From Frankiaceae bacterium (GTDB lineage: Bacteria; Actinomycetota; Actinomycetes; JADGOV01): DNA of 34,026 nt. Of the stretch, positions 278 to 8,508 are shown in pieces. The translations under genes were made by a program, and so were the position numbers. Every line of letters starts with the position of its first letter. Position 1 is the stretch's first letter. The notes beneath the pieces are model-generated. The model saw nothing but the letters and a program-made list of their open reading frames with translations. It made no database searches and was not told the origin of the DNA. The stretch lies in the NCBI GenBank assembly GCA_017882785.1, contig JADGOV010000024.1, forward strand, positions 1 through 34,026, read 5' to 3'.

Positions 278-315
278 GACAACATTTGTTCCCGCAAAAC
301 GGTACAATCGTTGTC
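278..315. promoter_or_regulatory. 38-bp dyad, candidate AbiEi autoregulatory operator
   Basis: GACAACatTTGTtCCcgcaaaacGGtACAAtcGTTGTC, 12 of the 15 outer positions pair; ends directly before GTG 316. Confidence 0.6.
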
Positions 316-972
316 GTGGCTGACTCGACCCTTGCTCGCCTCGGCTCCATCGCGGAACGGCGGTGGGGCCTGTTCACCACCGCCCAGGCCGAGGCCGCAG
401 GGGTTGCTCGCAAGCAGCTCGTACGGATGGCAGCCTCCGGCGCGATCGAACGACTCGCACACGGGGTCTATCGCACGGCTGGCGCTCCCCCACAGACCCA
501 CGAGGCCATCTACGCCACCTGGCTCGCGCTCGGCGGCGCCACGGCTGCCCGGACCGAGTCAGGGGTCGCCCCGCTCGTAGCCGCTGGAGTGACTGCCGCC
601 GTGGTGCAGGAGATCGGGGACTTCTTCCTCGACGGACTCGACTTCATCGTCCCCGCGCGCAAGGGCACCCGGCTTCCCGACGTACGGCTACGCATCCGGC
701 ACCTGAGCCCCGAGGATGTCGTTCCCGTCAACGGCCTACCCACTCTCACGGTCGAGCGCACCATCACCGACCTCGTCGAGATCGGCACCGACACGTCACT
801 GGTCGCCGACGCGCTGCGCGATGCCGTGCGCATGGGGAAGGTCGTCGCACCCGAACGCCTCCTGTCCGATCTCTCGGCCCTCGCCTCACGTCGAGGCAAC
901 GATGCTGATCGCCTCGCCGAGGAACTCATCGGACTGGTCGGCGCACCTGTCGAACGAAGCGATCGTGGCTGA
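316..972 (+). CDS. abiEi: Type IV toxin-antitoxin AbiEi-family antitoxin
   Basis: N-terminal winged-HTH pattern (AERRWGLFTTAQAEAAGVARKQLVRMAASGAIERLAHGVYR) and C-terminal AbiEi-like region; GTG start chosen after the dyad. Confidence 0.85.
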   Translation: MADSTLARLGSIAERRWGLFTTAQAEAAGVARKQLVRMAASGAIERLAHGVYRTAGAPPQTHEAIYATWLALGGATAARTESGVAPLVAAGVTAAVVQEIGDFFLDGLDFIVPARKGTRLPDVRLRIRHLSPEDVVPVNGLPTLTVERTITDLVEIGTDTSLVADALRDAVRMGKVVAPERLLSDLSALASRRGNDADRLAEELIGLVGAPVERSDRG

Positions 973-1019
973 GGAACCGGGCTACGGCGACTGGCGCTCT
1001 CTGGAGCTGGCCATCAAGG

Positions 1020-1955
1020 ATGCCGCCAAGAAGCGCCAAGAAGAAGGCGCAGCAGGCCGGGGCCGGCGTCAGCTCGGCGACCGTGGATGCGCAGATCCGC
1101 CAAGCCCGCTACGACCGATTCCTCTCCCGCGTCTTCGCCGAGGGTGAGGCATCGGAGTGGCTGCTCAAGGGCGGGCTGAGCATGCTCGCCCGGGTCCCCC
1201 GGTCTCGCACCACGAAGGACGTCGACCTCGCCGCCCAGCACGCTGCAGACCTCGGAGAGGCCGAGCGGACTCTGTCGGCTCTGGTTGCGGTCGATCTCGG
1301 TGATCACCTGTCGTTCAGGCTGATCCGCTCGATGCCGACCGGCCTGGACGACAACCAGCCCGGGGTAGAGACCCGACGCCTCGTCTACGCGTGCCTCGAC
1401 GTCGACCACGACACCCAGATCGACACCGTGACCGTCGACATCGTCGTCGGCCCGGCTCCGGTCGGGAGCCCGGAGGTCGTCGACCCGGCCAACCGGCTGC
1501 ACCTACGCCGACCGCTCGTCACTCGCCCCTACCGGCTGTTCCCCGTGGCCGACCAGATCGCCGACAAGGTCTGCGCCACGATGAGCACCAACTACCCCGG
1601 CGGCAAACGCAGCAGCCGGGTAAAGGACCTGGTCGACCTCGTCGTCCTGGCGCACTCCCAGACCGTCGACCTGGCCGAGCTGCGGTTCGCGATCGCCAAC
1701 AAGCAGGCGATCAGCGGCATGGAACCGTTCGACCACTTCGACATCCCCGCCGACTGGCGCCGTACCTACCCAGCGACGGCCAAGGGAGTGCCGTCGGCGC
1801 AGACGTACAAGGCCGACACGGCAGCAGCCCTCGCCGCCTCGTTCGTCGGGCCAGCCCTGGAGAAGAGCTCGAACACCGGCACCTGGGACCCCCAGAACCT
1901 CCAGTGGAGCGCGACGGCGAGCGTACCCAGAGCCTACCCAGCAGATTCAGAATGA
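1020..1955 (+). CDS. abiEii: AbiEii/AbiGii-type nucleotidyltransferase toxin; N-terminus apparently frameshifted (true start probably GTG 965)
   Basis: LLKGGLSMLARVPRSRTTKDVDL nucleotidyltransferase motif; family-like N-terminus GYGDWRSLELAIKDAAKK lies upstream in another frame. Confidence 0.8.
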   Translation: MPPRSAKKKAQQAGAGVSSATVDAQIRQARYDRFLSRVFAEGEASEWLLKGGLSMLARVPRSRTTKDVDLAAQHAADLGEAERTLSALVAVDLGDHLSFRLIRSMPTGLDDNQPGVETRRLVYACLDVDHDTQIDTVTVDIVVGPAPVGSPEVVDPANRLHLRRPLVTRPYRLFPVADQIADKVCATMSTNYPGGKRSSRVKDLVDLVVLAHSQTVDLAELRFAIANKQAISGMEPFDHFDIPADWRRTYPATAKGVPSAQTYKADTAAALAASFVGPALEKSSNTGTWDPQNLQWSATASVPRAYPADSE

Positions 1956-2002: not shown

Positions 2003-2016
2003 ACTACGACATCTGA
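2003..2016 (+). repeat. Right copy of 14-bp direct repeat ACTACGACATCTGA
   Basis: Exact match to 131-144; preceded by degenerate copy CACTACCATCTGAG (1988-2001). Confidence 0.85.
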
Positions 2017-3413
2017 GCAAGGAAGCCGACGTCGCCGCCGAACACCGATCGGGCGGCGGCGGCGGTGACCTCGGCACCGACCGCCGCGGCGAGCGTGTCC
2101 CGCATGGCGTCCAGATCGGCGTCCAGATCGGTCGCGTCGGCTGGGGCCACGGCCTCGTCGAAGTCGACCAGCCACACCCGCCGCTGAGCGTCGACCAGGA
2201 CGTTCTCCGGCGACAACGCCCGGTGCGCCAGGCCCACGGCGCGTAGCCGGCTGACCTGCCGCCAGGCGTCGCGGGCGAGGTTCCCGCCGTCCCCGACACC
2301 ATTACCCGTCTCGCCGCAGCCGGCGACGGCGATCGAGCGGGCATCCACCCAGGGATGCACGAGCAGACCGGTGCCGTTGCCGTAGCCTCCTACGGACAGG
2401 ACCTCGGGCACGCGTACGCCGGCCGCCTTCGCCAGCTGCCCCATCGCGGCCTCCCGGCCGACCTGCTCGACGGGAGTGCCTCCTCCTCGAGGAGGTCGGC
2501 CGCTAGGCTTCCGGCCGCCCGTGAGGGCCAGCCACATCCGGTAGAGCACATCGACGTCTCGCCGCTCTCGCGGGACGACCTTGAGGAACAGTCGCCTCCC
2601 GTCCACGGTGTCCGCCACGAAGGGGGCCGAGCGCCGGGCGTCGAGGTCGACGGCCGTCAGATCCGCAATAGCGTAACCCCGTTCGGCAAGCGCGCGCCGC
2701 AACCCCCGCACCGAGGGCCGGCCCGTCGGTGCGCCCAACAGCAGGTGGGTCAGCGCACCGACCCCCCAGCCCAGCGCGGCGCCACCGAGAACGTCGAGCG
2801 GCAGGTGCGCGCCCACGTAGAGCCGACTCACACACACCACGCCGGCCAGCGCCCACAACACCCGTCGGGACCGGCGACCCACGTAAGGAGACAGCAGCGT
2901 GGCCAGCGCGACGGCCACCGCAGCGTGTCCGGACAGGTAGCCCGATCCGCCGGCCGGGGCGCCGCGGACGTGAACCCCGGCGAGCAGCACATCCGGCCGA
3001 GGGCGGACGATGACCGTCTTGATCACCTTTGCCAGCAGCCAGACTCCGCCACCGGCGATGCAGATCTCGGCCGCCAGCCGGAAACGTCGATACGCCAGCG
3101 CGCCGGCCGCCGCGACGGGCACCGCGAGGATGTTGCCCATCTGCATGACGGGCCACAACAGCCCGATCCAGGCGTCCGGCAGGTCGTTGAGCAGCCGGAA
3201 CAGGTCCGCCTCGGTGATGGCGACCCGCTCCCGGTGGACGAAGACCGCGGTGATCACCAGCGTGCCACCGGCCAGGACGACGCGGACCGCGTCGCCGGGA
3301 TGCCGCGGCAGGGCCCACCCCGATCCGCCGCCCGCTGCCCCCCTGCCGTCGGGTGGGCTGGGCGGCCGGGCCCGGCGCCGCCCGACGGGACGCCGCGGGG
3401 CTGGACGGGTCAC
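2004..3413 (-). CDS. PAP2-family phosphatase fused to a kinase-like domain lacking the catalytic Asp
   Basis: PAP2 motifs KTVIVRPRP, LSGH, SRLYVGAHLPLD intact; kinase-like LAHRALSPENVLVD...VDFDEA. Confidence 0.85.
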   Translation of the reverse strand: MTRPAPRRPVGRRRARPPSPPDGRGAAGGGSGWALPRHPGDAVRVVLAGGTLVITAVFVHRERVAITEADLFRLLNDLPDAWIGLLWPVMQMGNILAVPVAAAGALAYRRFRLAAEICIAGGGVWLLAKVIKTVIVRPRPDVLLAGVHVRGAPAGGSGYLSGHAAVAVALATLLSPYVGRRSRRVLWALAGVVCVSRLYVGAHLPLDVLGGAALGWGVGALTHLLLGAPTGRPSVRGLRRALAERGYAIADLTAVDLDARRSAPFVADTVDGRRLFLKVVPRERRDVDVLYRMWLALTGGRKPSGRPPRGGGTPVEQVGREAAMGQLAKAAGVRVPEVLSVGGYGNGTGLLVHPWVDARSIAVAGCGETGNGVGDGGNLARDAWRQVSRLRAVGLAHRALSPENVLVDAQRRVWLVDFDEAVAPADATDLDADLDAMRDTLAAAVGAEVTAAAARSVFGGDVGFLAQMS

Positions 3414-5635
3414 CTGGTAACCCTGGGGTCGAGCCGCAATCTGCCGTCGGAGCGCTCGGCCAGCGCGGCCTGCAGCGATCGGCGTGACTCGTACCCCAGA
3501 ACCAACGGCGCCTCCCCGGCCACCTGGCCGGTCACGTCAGGGCTGTTCGAGGTGGAGGTGAGCCGGTAGGTGACGCAGCCGCCGGGAAACACGTCGTGAT
3601 AGACAGCCTCGAAGGTGGTGCCGCTGGGCGGACGCTGGAAGCGGCGTACCCGGCTGTCGGCGGAGTCGATCTCGGTGGCTCCCCGCACGTCACAGCTGGC
3701 GACGAGCCGGGCGACCAATGCCCCACTCCCCGCCCTGTCGTTGTCGAAGGTGTAGGTCGATTGCCCGCTGCGGGCCGCGACATGGTCCAATCGCCAGCCG
3801 GCCGGCAGGGTCAGCACGCAGGGCAGCAACGAGGAGGAGGGCACCGACTGGGCCGTGAGCCACATCGGGGCCAGCTGCCGGCAACTGAGGGCGGAGACCC
3901 CCAGCGAAGTGATGTCCTGCTGTCGGAAGGTGAACAGCGACCTGCTCTGCACGATCAGTAACGCTGCCAGCAGCACGCAGATCCACAAGCCGACCCGCCG
4001 CAGGTTCCAGCGTTGGATCGCGACCGGGGCCGGCGGTTCCGGCAGCAGGCGGATGAACTCGCCGTGCAGATCCCGGCCCTGGGCCCGCAGCGCGTGCCGC
4101 AGCTGCGACGGCAGCGCCAGCCCGCGGGCAGCGGCGAACGCCTCCCCGATGTCGGCCAGGCTGAAGTACTGCTGCGCGCGCTCGTAGACCCGCTCCGTGC
4201 TGCTCTGCAGGGCCAGGCACAGCATCATGTTGGCCAGGTCGACGGCCTGCCGCCACGGGCTCGGCCGCAGCTCGGCGAAGGCGACGTCGATGAGCAACAT
4301 CCGGCCGTCCCGAACGAGCAGGTTGGAGGGCTTGATGTCGCGATGGGCGAGGCCGGCATCCCAGAGCTGCCGGACGATCCGCAGCCCGGCATCGATGACG
4401 TCGTCATCGACCTGCACCTCTCCGAGCTCGACGGCGCCCTCGAAGAACTCGGTGACCAACAGGTACTCCCGCTCGGGAGTCAGCTCGGCGACTCCGCCGG
4501 GCGCCGGCGTGGGCAGGCTGTGGTCCCGGAACAGGCGCAGGGCGTAGTCCTCCTGCTGCACGAGCCGACGCACGGTCGTGAACGGCTTCTCGTCCTCCAA
4601 TCGGCCGTAGAGCAACTCACGGCCCAGCTTGTACCAGCGGTCGGAACGGAGGTGGTTCTCGGCGTACAGCTTGCCGAACAGGCTGGTGTCCGGGTTGCCG
4701 CGCACCCGGATCCGCAGCGGCGTGGAGCCCGCGGAGCCGGCAAGTCCGAACGGGGTGATCTCGCCGACGACGAGGCCGAGCTGCTCTTCGAGGGCCCGCT
4801 GGATCGCGGCACCGCGGGCGCCGCCGACGTCGAGGTGCGCCGACCGGCCCCGCTTGTAGGTGATCGGGAACGCCTCGTTCGGAGTGAACATCCGGAACGC
4901 CACCAGCGGAATGGCCACCCCGATGGCCGCGCCGACGGCCACATCGACCGGGGTTTCGACACCGAGGCTGATCCGGGCCAGGGCGACCAGTCCGACGAGC
5001 ACCACCCCGGCCCACTTGCCGTAGTTCCGCCAGCGCCCCTCGGGCACCAGCGTGTACAGCGCCGCCACGATCGTCGCGGACAACGCCGCCACCTGCAGCG
5101 AGGGCAGCGCCCAGCCGCCCCAGCTGCCCCGGATCGGCACGTCGAACGGGCGGGGGCGCTGGGCGGCCGGGACGATCACCTCGAAGAGCAGGGCGGCGAT
5201 GTTCCACGCCACGAGAAACACCACGAGATGCCGCAGTCGCCGCAACACCAGCAGCGCGACCACCAGCGTCCACAGCAACACGGTGAGCAGCGGCAGCGCC
5301 GCGGCCGCCGCCAGGCACCGGGTGAGCCTGGCATATCCGGGAACCGACACCGCGCTCAACCAGCGCACAACAGCGTCGTCGGCAACGGTGATCGCGACGG
5401 CGGGTCCCCGCCAGCCCGCGGAGAACACCGTGACCGACACCGTCACGAGGATGAACGCGGCGACCAGCCACCCCACGCCACTGCGGCGCACATGACGCGG
5501 CAGGGGTGGCGGCTCTCCCGACGGACGCCGCCGCCGGGCAACAAGCTGCAGCCCGCCCATACGCTGCCTGCTCGGATGCGATGGGTGTGCCGGACGGGCG
5601 GAGTCGAACGTGCCAGGTGCCTCCACGCTGCTCAC
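3410..5635 (-). CDS. PAP2-like membrane domain (degenerate) fused to a Ser/Thr/RIO-like kinase domain and a C-terminal TM plus extracytoplasmic domain
   Basis: Kinase LAHRDIKPSNLLVRDGRMLLIDVAFAE; PAP2-like RPRPFD...PSLQ...ARISLGVETPVD; C-terminal TM and Cys-containing tail; 4-bp overlap with 2004-3413. Confidence 0.82.
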   Translation of the reverse strand: MSSVEAPGTFDSARPAHPSHPSRQRMGGLQLVARRRRPSGEPPPLPRHVRRSGVGWLVAAFILVTVSVTVFSAGWRGPAVAITVADDAVVRWLSAVSVPGYARLTRCLAAAAALPLLTVLLWTLVVALLVLRRLRHLVVFLVAWNIAALLFEVIVPAAQRPRPFDVPIRGSWGGWALPSLQVAALSATIVAALYTLVPEGRWRNYGKWAGVVLVGLVALARISLGVETPVDVAVGAAIGVAIPLVAFRMFTPNEAFPITYKRGRSAHLDVGGARGAAIQRALEEQLGLVVGEITPFGLAGSAGSTPLRIRVRGNPDTSLFGKLYAENHLRSDRWYKLGRELLYGRLEDEKPFTTVRRLVQQEDYALRLFRDHSLPTPAPGGVAELTPEREYLLVTEFFEGAVELGEVQVDDDVIDAGLRIVRQLWDAGLAHRDIKPSNLLVRDGRMLLIDVAFAELRPSPWRQAVDLANMMLCLALQSSTERVYERAQQYFSLADIGEAFAAARGLALPSQLRHALRAQGRDLHGEFIRLLPEPPAPVAIQRWNLRRVGLWICVLLAALLIVQSRSLFTFRQQDITSLGVSALSCRQLAPMWLTAQSVPSSSLLPCVLTLPAGWRLDHVAARSGQSTYTFDNDRAGSGALVARLVASCDVRGATEIDSADSRVRRFQRPPSGTTFEAVYHDVFPGGCVTYRLTSTSNSPDVTGQVAGEAPLVLGYESRRSLQAALAERSDGRLRLDPRVTR

Positions 5636-5731: not shown

Positions 5732-6427
5732 TCAGCTGTAGCGGCCCCGCAGCACGCTGTGACTGGAGTGCCGGGGGTTGCCGTCGTCGCGCTGCAGGCT
5801 GACGTCGACGGCGGCGTAGGCGGTGACCAGCGCGGCGGGGAGGTGGAAGCTCGCTCGCCCGTCCGGCGCGAGCACCCCGATACCGACCATCTTCGAGGTC
5901 GTCGGCTCGAACAGCCAGACCTCGTAGAACTGGCCGGGACCGGGCGCGGTCAGGCCCTTGGTAGCGACGGTCATGTCGGTGCGCCGCCCGGGTAGGCGCA
6001 TGGTGACCACTCCGCGAGCGTCGCTGCCGGACGTGGCACGCAAGGCCGCGGTCTGCACCGAGGCAGGCGACGCCGGCCCCCCGGCGTCACGGGTCACCCA
6101 TGCGATCCCACCAGCGGCCAGCAGCGCGATGACCGCGGCGGCCGCGGCCAGCCGGGCACGCGGCCGCCGCGGCGTCTGGAGGGGCGGCAGTTCGGCGTCC
6201 AGCGCCGCCAACGGCTCGGCCGCCAGGTGATCGTGCGCCCGGAACGGGCTCGCCTGCCCGAACACCCGAGCGGAGGAGAGGAGCGCGCCGGTGGCCGCGG
6301 CGGTGCTGACGAGGCTGCGACGACAGGCATCGCAGGCCTTGAGGTGCGCCACGACCTGGGTCGTCTGCTCGCGAGGGAGGTCGCCACTCAGGAGCGCCGG
6401 CAGATCGTCCGGGACATGCTCGGTCAT
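5732..6427 (-). CDS. Anti-sigma factor (zinc-finger HxxxCxxC plus RskA-like extracytoplasmic domain)
   Basis: HLKACDACRRS, one TM, then GQFYEVWLFEPTTSKMVGIGVLAPDGRASFHLP typical of RskA-type anti-sigma-K. Confidence 0.88.
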   Translation of the reverse strand: MTEHVPDDLPALLSGDLPREQTTQVVAHLKACDACRRSLVSTAAATGALLSSARVFGQASPFRAHDHLAAEPLAALDAELPPLQTPRRPRARLAAAAAVIALLAAGGIAWVTRDAGGPASPASVQTAALRATSGSDARGVVTMRLPGRRTDMTVATKGLTAPGPGQFYEVWLFEPTTSKMVGIGVLAPDGRASFHLPAALVTAYAAVDVSLQRDDGNPRHSSHSVLRGRYS

Positions 6428-6963
6428 GATCCCTCCGCACCGTAGCCGAGTGATCCGGCCAGTCTGCGCAGCCCGCGCGCCGTCCAACTCTTGACCGTGT
6501 TCAGTGGCACGCCGAGTTCAGCGGCGATCTCCCCCTGGGTGCGGGATTCGAAGTAGGCCAGGTGCAGGGCCGCGCGCTGGCCCGCGGGCAACGAGGCCAC
6601 GGCTGCCCGAACCTCAGCGGCGAAGGCCAGCCGGTCGGCGACGTCGCGACCGTCCTCGCCGGCCAGTCCGCGCAGCGTGTCGATGGGGACGACGGTGGCG
6701 CGCCGCTGTCGCAAGGAGTCGATGGCGCGCTTACGGGCAATCCCGAGAACCCACGCCTCGATGCTGCGGGTGGGGTCGAAGCGGTCGGCGGAGCGCCAGA
6801 CCTCTATGAACACCCGTTGCAGCACATCCTCCGCGTCCTCCCGGCCCAGGTAACGGCGCAGGTAGGACAGCACGAGCGGGCCGAGCGCCGCGTAGCACTC
6901 CTCGAGAGCCAGGCGATCACCGGTTGCCAGGCGATCACCGATCGCGCTCGGCCCGCTCGTCAT
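6424..6963 (-). CDS. ECF-subfamily RNA polymerase sigma factor
   Basis: LGREDAEDVLQRVFIEVWRSADRFDPTRS (region 2) and TQGEIAAELGVPLNTVKSWTARGLRRL (region 4); 4-bp overlap with anti-sigma. Confidence 0.92.
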   Translation of the reverse strand: MTSGPSAIGDRLATGDRLALEECYAALGPLVLSYLRRYLGREDAEDVLQRVFIEVWRSADRFDPTRSIEAWVLGIARKRAIDSLRQRRATVVPIDTLRGLAGEDGRDVADRLAFAAEVRAAVASLPAGQRAALHLAYFESRTQGEIAAELGVPLNTVKSWTARGLRRLAGSLGYGAEGS

Positions 6964-6979
6964 GACCCCTCCTACCGCG

Positions 6980-7504
6980 TCAGCGACCCAGCACGGCGGT
7001 GACCGTGGCCGTCCCGACCCGAAGGCCGGCGGTGAAGACCGACGTGTGCAGGGCACCGTTGAGGCCAGTTGCGGCACCGGCGGTCAGGGTGGCCCCGACG
7101 TTGTCGACCCGAACGCCGGACGAGGTGGGCGTGATCGTGGCGTTGTTGAGGTTCAGGTCGAAGACCGGGATGCGGGCGTGGAGGGCCGGCACGTACCCCG
7201 TCAGTCGCGGAGCGTCCCCGAGGACGACGCGGAAGCCCTGAACGGTCAGCGACCGCTTGTTCCCCAGATTGTAGAAGTGCAGCCCTCCGGAGTGACCGAT
7301 CGCACCGCTGACCTTCGCCAGGTTCAGCGAGCCGCCCGTGATCGGGAAGGTGTAGCGAACGGTCGGGCCGGCGGCGCCGTGCGTGACCGAGGCGGTGTCC
7401 GCCGCAGAACCGGCGGTGACGGCCCCGGCCGGGGCGGCGAGCGCGCCGGCGAGCAGCGGGGCGGCCAGGGTGGCCGCGGCGGTGCGGGTGTTGCGTGACC
7501 TCAC
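6980..7504 (-). CDS. Secreted protein with signal peptide (weakly HtaA-like)
   Basis: VRSRNTRTAAATLAAPLLAGALAAPAGA signal peptide; beta-rich mature part without cysteine; adjacent to ECF/anti-sigma pair. Confidence 0.65.
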   Translation of the reverse strand: MRSRNTRTAAATLAAPLLAGALAAPAGAVTAGSAADTASVTHGAAGPTVRYTFPITGGSLNLAKVSGAIGHSGGLHFYNLGNKRSLTVQGFRVVLGDAPRLTGYVPALHARIPVFDLNLNNATITPTSSGVRVDNVGATLTAGAATGLNGALHTSVFTAGLRVGTATVTAVLGR

Positions 7505-7695
7505 GGGTACTCCTCGGTAGAGACGCTGACCTCCGGTCCTTCGTACGGTCGATATCCGATGGTTGCACAATCTTTGCATAACTTTGCGTCATCCGACTGG
7601 CGCCCTCGGTGTGGCCGCCGCCGCGACGCCTGCTTCTGCTGCCAGCTGAATTGTCGGAGCCGGGCATAACGCCATGCTTCTGGCACACTGTTCAG

Positions 7696-8508
7696 ATGGG
7701 TGATCGACGAGGGGTGCTGCGCCCGCAGCGGCCACAGCGGTGGACGGTGACGCGTCGCCCCCGGATCTGGGAAGAAATCCTCTTCATCGCGCTCGCGTAC
7801 GAGCTCTACTCGCTGGTCCGCAACGGGGTGCCGACCCACGAGGCGACGGCCTTTGCGAATGCGTACGCCGTCCTCGGCGTGGAGAATGCGCTGCGGCTCG
7901 GCGTCGAGCCGGCGGTCAACGGCGCGCTGGCGGGCGCCGCCTGGCTCTCGACCGTGGCCGCCTACTGGTATGCCACCATGCACTTCGTCGTGACCATCGC
8001 GGTGTTGGTCTGGCTGTGGCGGGTGCATCCGCTGCGCTACCGGGCGGCGCGCTCGGTGCTGATGACGACCAACCTGGTTGCGCTTCTGGGGTTCTGGCTC
8101 TTCCCGCTTGCCCCACCGCGGATGCTCCCCGGCTTCGTCGACACCGTGGCCCGCGACCACATCTGGGGGTCCTACGCCTCCAACGGAGTTGCCTCGGCGT
8201 CCAACCAGTTCGCCGCGATGCCCTCGATGCACGTCGGCTGGTCGCTGTGGTGCGGCATCGTCATCGTCAGCCTGTCCCGGCGATCATGGGTCCGGGCGCT
8301 GGGCGCGCTCTACCCAGTGATCACGGTCGCGGTGATCATCGGCACCGCGAACCACTACGTGCTGGACGCCGTCGGTGGGGTGGCGGCGTTGGCGTGCGGG
8401 TTCATGGTGCAACGGCTGCGCACCGGTCAACCGGCGTTCGGCACTCCGGTGCCGGTGTCGTCCGCCCCGGCGTCCCCGCACCCCGGCGAGCTCCGCGACG
8501 CGGCCTGA
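7696..8508 (+). CDS. PAP2-superfamily membrane protein (inositol phosphorylceramide synthase-like)
   Basis: FAAMPSMHVGWSLWC and GTANHYVLDAVGG motifs, multiple TM segments. Confidence 0.85.
   Translation: MGDRRGVLRPQRPQRWTVTRRPRIWEEILFIALAYELYSLVRNGVPTHEATAFANAYAVLGVENALRLGVEPAVNGALAGAAWLSTVAAYWYATMHFVVTIAVLVWLWRVHPLRYRAARSVLMTTNLVALLGFWLFPLAPPRMLPGFVDTVARDHIWGSYASNGVASASNQFAAMPSMHVGWSLWCGIVIVSLSRRSWVRALGALYPVITVAVIIGTANHYVLDAVGGVAALACGFMVQRLRTGQPAFGTPVPVSSAPASPHPGELRDAA

Follow-up and report, generated by a model that had tools for sequence, protein, structure and literature searches.

Does a pair of overlapping genes, each fusing a PAP2-type membrane domain to a kinase-like domain, divide two opposing activities between its products? 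The question is raised by genes A and B, which lie on the reverse strand of a 34,026-nucleotide stretch of a Frankiaceae bacterium (assembly GCA_017882785.1, contig JADGOV010000024.1; the whole stretch is referred to here as the window). A preliminary description made from the sequence had proposed that their active sites are reciprocally degenerate, with A a live phosphatase bearing a dead kinase and B a live kinase bearing a dead phosphatase. This is exactly the state found in the window, and the B half of it is conserved among the relatives of B; the A half is not. Because one state is conserved and the other is local, the apparent reciprocity is a coincidence. The two co-directional open reading frames, their overlap of 4 bp (GTGA) and the motif residues were all recovered as described (Table 1), and given the overlap the two proteins are probably co-translated. 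G+C content at the third codon position is 0.85–0.93 in every domain, against about 0.5 at the second, which supports real coding throughout, including the kinase half of A.

To place B among its relatives, we searched 399 genomes of the phylum with a profile and found B in 27 of them, from 20 of the 239 genera sampled. Six named records also encode it: two from Geodermatophilaceae, three metagenome-assembled genomes (one each of Jatrophihabitans, Acidimicrobiales and Actinomycetes) and a short contig labelled Dormibacteraeota. This last (locus L021) is a 2.8-kb contig assigned to Candidatus Dormibacteraeota and is possibly mis-binned; B was otherwise seen only in Actinobacteria. At another locus (L125:6944-7966, genome G474) the B gene is split into two frames near position 7080, through either a sequencing error or pseudogene formation.

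The membrane domain of B passes the Pfam PAP2 profile (31.0 bits), and its motifs read PAAQRPRP, PSLQ and AR-x5-E, without the residues of a PAP2 phosphatase. Counted by hand from the residue table, the His of SGH and the C3 His are kept in 0 of 43 PAP2 domains of B relatives, and the Pro-Ser pair and Arg221 do not vary in an 11-member B alignment. The fold is nonetheless maintained, as a conserved pseudophosphatase. Most B proteins also share a conserved cytosolic stretch, RRRRPSGEPPPLPRH, at the N-terminus before the first transmembrane (TM) helix (window positions about 5500-5535, reverse strand), a possible docking motif.

At the same time, the kinase domain of B retains everything expected of a protein-kinase-like phosphotransferase (Lys, Glu, HRD...N and a DFG-type Asp), with HRD...N present, by the same hand count, in all 42 readable B kinase loops; chance motifs were rejected on the strength of this family-wide conservation. 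No curated kinase cut-off was passed by B itself (Kdo 19.7 of 21.3, RIO1 17.2 of 22, Bud32 27.2 of 125), and the Pkinase and APH profiles also match below theirs; a relative at locus L023 passes RIO1 (24.5 of 22). In a structure model of B with a mean predicted local distance difference test score (pLDDT) of 68.7, the kinase fold lies nearest to RIOK3 and PRPK, with E-values of about 1e-5 or better. B is therefore, as had been proposed for the copy in the window, an active-looking kinase on a pseudophosphatase, and both parts of this description are conserved. Hydropathy indicates about six TM helices per PAP2 domain, then the kinase and, in B, one more TM helix; this helix and the Cys-containing extracytoplasmic tail that follows it had likewise been noted earlier, and both are present. 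Read against the established PAP2 fold, the hydropathy profile predicts that the kinase is cytosolic and that the tail lies outside, which agrees with the Cys residues of the tail and with the lipobox-like starts described below. For the four-Cys tail we found no model in Pfam or NCBIfam.

Gene A, by its residues, is predicted to encode a PAP2 phosphatase with a complete catalytic set. Its membrane domain scores 66.3 bits against the Pfam PAP2 cut-off of 27.2 and carries K132-x6-RP, SGH163 and SR197-x5-H203-x3-D207. The best structural match of this part is LpxE (6ebu; TM-score 0.80 on the target, root-mean-square deviation 2.3), and by analogy with the topology of LpxE and PgpB the active site would face outwards. 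As an undecaprenyl-diphosphatase equivalog A falls below the cut-offs of both SepP and BcrC (42.2 bits against 250 and 25.7 against 229, respectively). The kinase-like part matches Pfam APH with 34.9 bits, and its catalytic loop reads H-R-A399-LSPEN, without the Asp of the HxD motif that a protein-kinase-like phosphotransferase carries. A sequencing error was rejected as the source of this HRA, the GCG codon being two changes away from GAC or GAT. The structure model gave a pLDDT below 50 almost throughout the kinase part, because the aligned relatives covered only the PAP2 part of A.

The loss of the catalytic Asp does not extend to the nearest comparable proteins. Two PAP2-kinase fusions adjacent to B in other genomes, at locus L028 (genome G033; HRDLVRAN with DFG) and locus L119 (genome G446; HGDLVGAN with DFG), keep both their PAP2 and their kinase catalytic sets intact, and A clusters with them in a kinase tree, with weak support. 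The usual partner beside B is, moreover, a stand-alone PAP2 protein without any kinase. These observations point to a lineage-specific, local loss in A; the order of the source genome is represented by that one genome only. The L028 protein, the nearest homologue of A, is a three-domain PAP2-kinase-LPG_synthase_TM protein, and the L119 protein is a natural two-domain fusion without the LPG_synthase_TM domain. A itself stops after the kinase, lacking the C-terminal domain of the three-domain class, and no LPG_synthase_TM match, including any remnant downstream of A, was found in the window. The preliminary description had asked whether the HRA/HRD and SGH/SLQ split recurs across homologous pairs; it does so on the B side, whereas on the A side the finding is the very outcome that description had named as contradicting it. 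The pairing of B with an intact PAP2 phosphatase has fared better: 30 complete PAP2 domains are encoded in the surroundings of B, and all but one of them (29) carry the full catalytic set (Lys, SGH and R/H/D), the lone exception (L107:8905-9453) having Trp in place of Lys.

Table 1 Features of the gene pair in the window (all on the reverse strand)
Feature	Position	Strand	Remarks
Gene A	2004..3413	-	469 aa; predicted PAP2 phosphatase with no catalytic residue missing, joined to a kinase-like domain without catalytic Asp
A, PAP2 domain	2730..3275	-	LpxE-like fold; K132, SGH163, R197, H203 and D207 all present
A, kinase-like domain	2064..2705	-	Lys, Glu, Asn and DFG-type Asp kept; HRD Asp absent
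A, codon GCG (Ala399)	2217..2219	-	replaces the HRD catalytic Asp
B stop/A start overlap	3410..3413	-	4 bp, GTGA
Gene B	3410..5635	-	741 aa; pseudo-PAP2, intact RIO/Bud32-like kinase, TM helix and four-Cys extracytoplasmic domain
B, PAP2-fold membrane domain	4850..5536	-	without catalytic Lys/His/His; no variation at the Pro-Ser pair or Arg221 among aligned family members
B, kinase domain	3986..4849	-	HRD433IKPSN, Lys322, Glu362 and Asp450 invariant in 11-member family alignment
B, single TM helix	3932..3988	-	aa about 550-568; connects the kinase with the tail
B, extracytoplasmic tail domain	3458..3868	-	four conserved Cys; separate lipoprotein gene in about half of relatives

We then considered the company that B keeps, mapping domains in the flanks of B loci with profiles built from B-locus sequences. 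The components that recur with B are the four-Cys tail, a protein with an LPG_synthase_TM domain (of the MprF flippase type), intact PAP2 proteins and, often, an OpuAC-type binding lipoprotein. The tail is either fused after the last TM helix of B or encoded by a separate gene, the latter often with a lipobox-like start. Within 5 kb of B at 44 loci, many of them cut by contig ends, LPG_synthase_TM was found at 23, intact PAP2 at 21 and the OpuAC type at 15; where 4 kb or more of sequence was available to either side of B (19 loci), the corresponding numbers were 10, 11 and 6. Since the genomes checked hold few such matches (about 1–9 for LPG_synthase_TM and 0–7 for OpuAC per genome), we estimate from these counts, in which related genomes are non-independent samples, that the clustering of partners with B is far above chance. 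Locus L115 shows operon-like packing: the genes for LPG_synthase_TM, B, the tail and OpuAC all point the same way and overlap, and next to them an intact PAP2 gene is divergently oriented. The source genome itself has a second locus with the complete set: a second B, the tail and an LPG_synthase_TM-PAP2 fusion lie on contig C119, and the PAP2 end and the OpuAC gene on contig C62, the two contigs overlapping by exactly 99 bp. In several genomes (G322, G395 and G445 among them) a B that lacks partners coexists with another B that has them. In two further clusters (L102:10813-12339 and L104:10864-11421, the L104 copy being cut by a contig end) a second, more divergent B-like gene adjoins the LPG_synthase_TM gene.

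Other genes surround the pair in the window. Immediately upstream of B, on the same strand and after a gap of 96 bp, are an extracytoplasmic function sigma factor (SigK-like) and an RskA-type anti-sigma factor (5732-7077); this pair was rejected as part of the module, since it is not among the neighbour families common to several B loci. A PAP2_3-family protein (180 bits) is encoded nearby on the opposite strand (7609-8508). Directly downstream of A, and convergent with it, lies an AbiEi/AbiEii type IV toxin-antitoxin pair (286-1955, forward strand), in a stretch with a G+C content of 0.67 versus 0.72; it may be the trace of a rearrangement where A ends.

What might such an assembly do? We favour, at about even confidence, a reading in which a cell-envelope module that handles lipids is conserved in Actinobacteria, with the kinase as its cytosolic arm, whether that kinase acts on lipid or on partner proteins, and in which the pair in the window is a reduced version of this module. 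Its likely role would be to handle or sense an envelope lipid that carries a phosphate. All proteins of the module would act on one envelope lipid: the pseudo-PAP2 domain of B would dock the lipid or a partner, its cytosolic kinase would phosphorylate either the head group of that lipid or a partner that handles it, the extracytoplasmic domain and the binding lipoprotein would control that kinase, and the flippase-like protein would move the lipid, from which the PAP2 protein would then take the phosphate off outside. The catalytic partition between B and its PAP2 neighbours, the recurrence and packing of the partner genes, the complete second locus, the four-Cys tail and the nearest folds of B's kinase and A's PAP2 part speak for this reading. 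Several observations weigh against it. About half of the well-flanked B loci have no partner genes, so that B can be encoded alone. The locus in the window has neither an LPG_synthase_TM nor an OpuAC gene, holding only B with its fused tail and the intact PAP2 of A. Finally, the RIO/Bud32 relatives of B are protein kinases or ATPases, which by analogy would favour signalling over lipid phosphorylation. A stricter version of the scheme seems to us rather improbable: B would phosphorylate an envelope lipid (or present it with the use of ATP), flipping by the LPG_synthase_TM protein would follow, and removal of the phosphate by the outward-facing PAP2 protein would make transport one-way, with the pseudo-PAP2 and the extracytoplasmic binding domains as the gate.

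The same kinship makes a transmembrane signalling kinase a tentative but serious alternative: the tail and the OpuAC-type lipoprotein would sense an external ligand, the pseudo-PAP2 domain would be a lipid-sensing or dimerising scaffold, the kinase would phosphorylate proteins (perhaps the flippase-like neighbour or an anti-sigma factor), and the PAP2 and LPG_synthase_TM proteins would be regulated outputs. A single TM helix does join the extracytoplasmic four-Cys domain to the kinase, OpuAC-type lipoprotein genes lie near B at 15 loci, the RIO/PRPK folds nearest to the kinase are mostly those of protein kinases, and the control of the kinase PknG by the solute-binding protein GlnH in mycobacteria (PMC6069109) offers a precedent. 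However, the recurrent partners are lipid enzymes, not regulators or transcription factors, and the sigma/anti-sigma pair of the window is absent from the neighbour families that several loci share. A narrower proposal concerns the history of A. A PAP2-kinase-LPG_synthase_TM protein could have been duplicated and then have lost its flippase-like C-terminal domain and its kinase activity; A would be its decaying remnant, in which the PAP2 domain alone, or no part at all, is still of consequence. This proposal is compatible with either reading of B. The three-domain build of its nearest homologue, the missing catalytic Asp, the toxin-antitoxin pair in a region of lower G+C content directly downstream and the complete module elsewhere in the same genome speak for such decay, but none of the PAP2 residues is missing, the kinase part shows strong codon bias along its length, no flippase-like remnant follows A, and the natural two-domain form at L119 means that A need not be a truncation; on balance we consider it rather unlikely. 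Least probable by far is a co-evolved reciprocal pair, in which each dead domain would be a dedicated regulator of the other protein. The window has exactly the state required, in overlapping genes that are probably co-translated, yet the pseudokinase is not conserved at L028 and L119, most PAP2 partners have no kinase to lose, and in the related three-domain proteins the losses fall in both domains and follow no evident pattern.

Comparison with known systems helps to delimit what is new here. The nearest homologues of A are the PAP2-kinase-LPG_synthase_TM proteins of Actinobacteria (800-960 aa), which share its order of PAP2 and kinase domains but, unlike A, carry the LPG_synthase_TM domain; most of them have lost PAP2 catalysis and many have lost kinase residues, this loss being scattered across both domains. 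With the LpxE, PgpB and BcrC-type phosphatases A shares the fold and the full catalytic set, and it differs from them in its kinase-like fusion and in scoring far under the equivalog cut-offs. B resembles the RIO/Bud32 (PRPK)/Kdo group in its catalytic loop, Lys, Glu and metal-binding Asp, but it is far from the Bud32 cut-off, is anchored by a PAP2-fold membrane domain and has an additional conserved stretch in the N-lobe, HLRSDRWYKLGRxLLYGRLEDEKPF. The flippase-like domain of MprF and TIGR00374 is represented by the LPG_synthase_TM partner of B (fused to PAP2 in the source genome), whereas the LPG_synthase_TM proteins of the module are not MprF equivalogs (51-62 bits against a cut-off of 600), and their genes are so short that a synthetase domain would hardly fit. 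With the GlnH-GlnX-PknG system of mycobacteria (PMC6069109), the likeness is one of working principle, an extracytoplasmic solute-binding protein combined with a kinase, and no homology is claimed; the module of B has instead an OpuAC-type binding protein and a PAP2 scaffold. We found no description of the architecture of B or of the module in the open-access literature, most subscription papers lying outside the search; one candidate (PMC12419801) was rejected as a prior description, as it does not contain the term LPG and mentions PAP2 only twice. Provisionally, then, the component domains are known and their combination in B and its module is apparently undescribed.

In B, an invariably dead phosphatase domain bears an invariably live kinase, and next to it are encoded a flippase-like protein and a second protein in which that phosphatase fold is live. 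This arrangement is a clear natural experiment on how opposing activities can be divided among paralogues. The module around B points to a regulated envelope-lipid system in many actinobacterial genera. If the kinase acts on lipid, an ATP-driven step would be added to lipid flipping; if it acts on proteins, B would represent a kinase family with a ready candidate for its ligand-binding partner.

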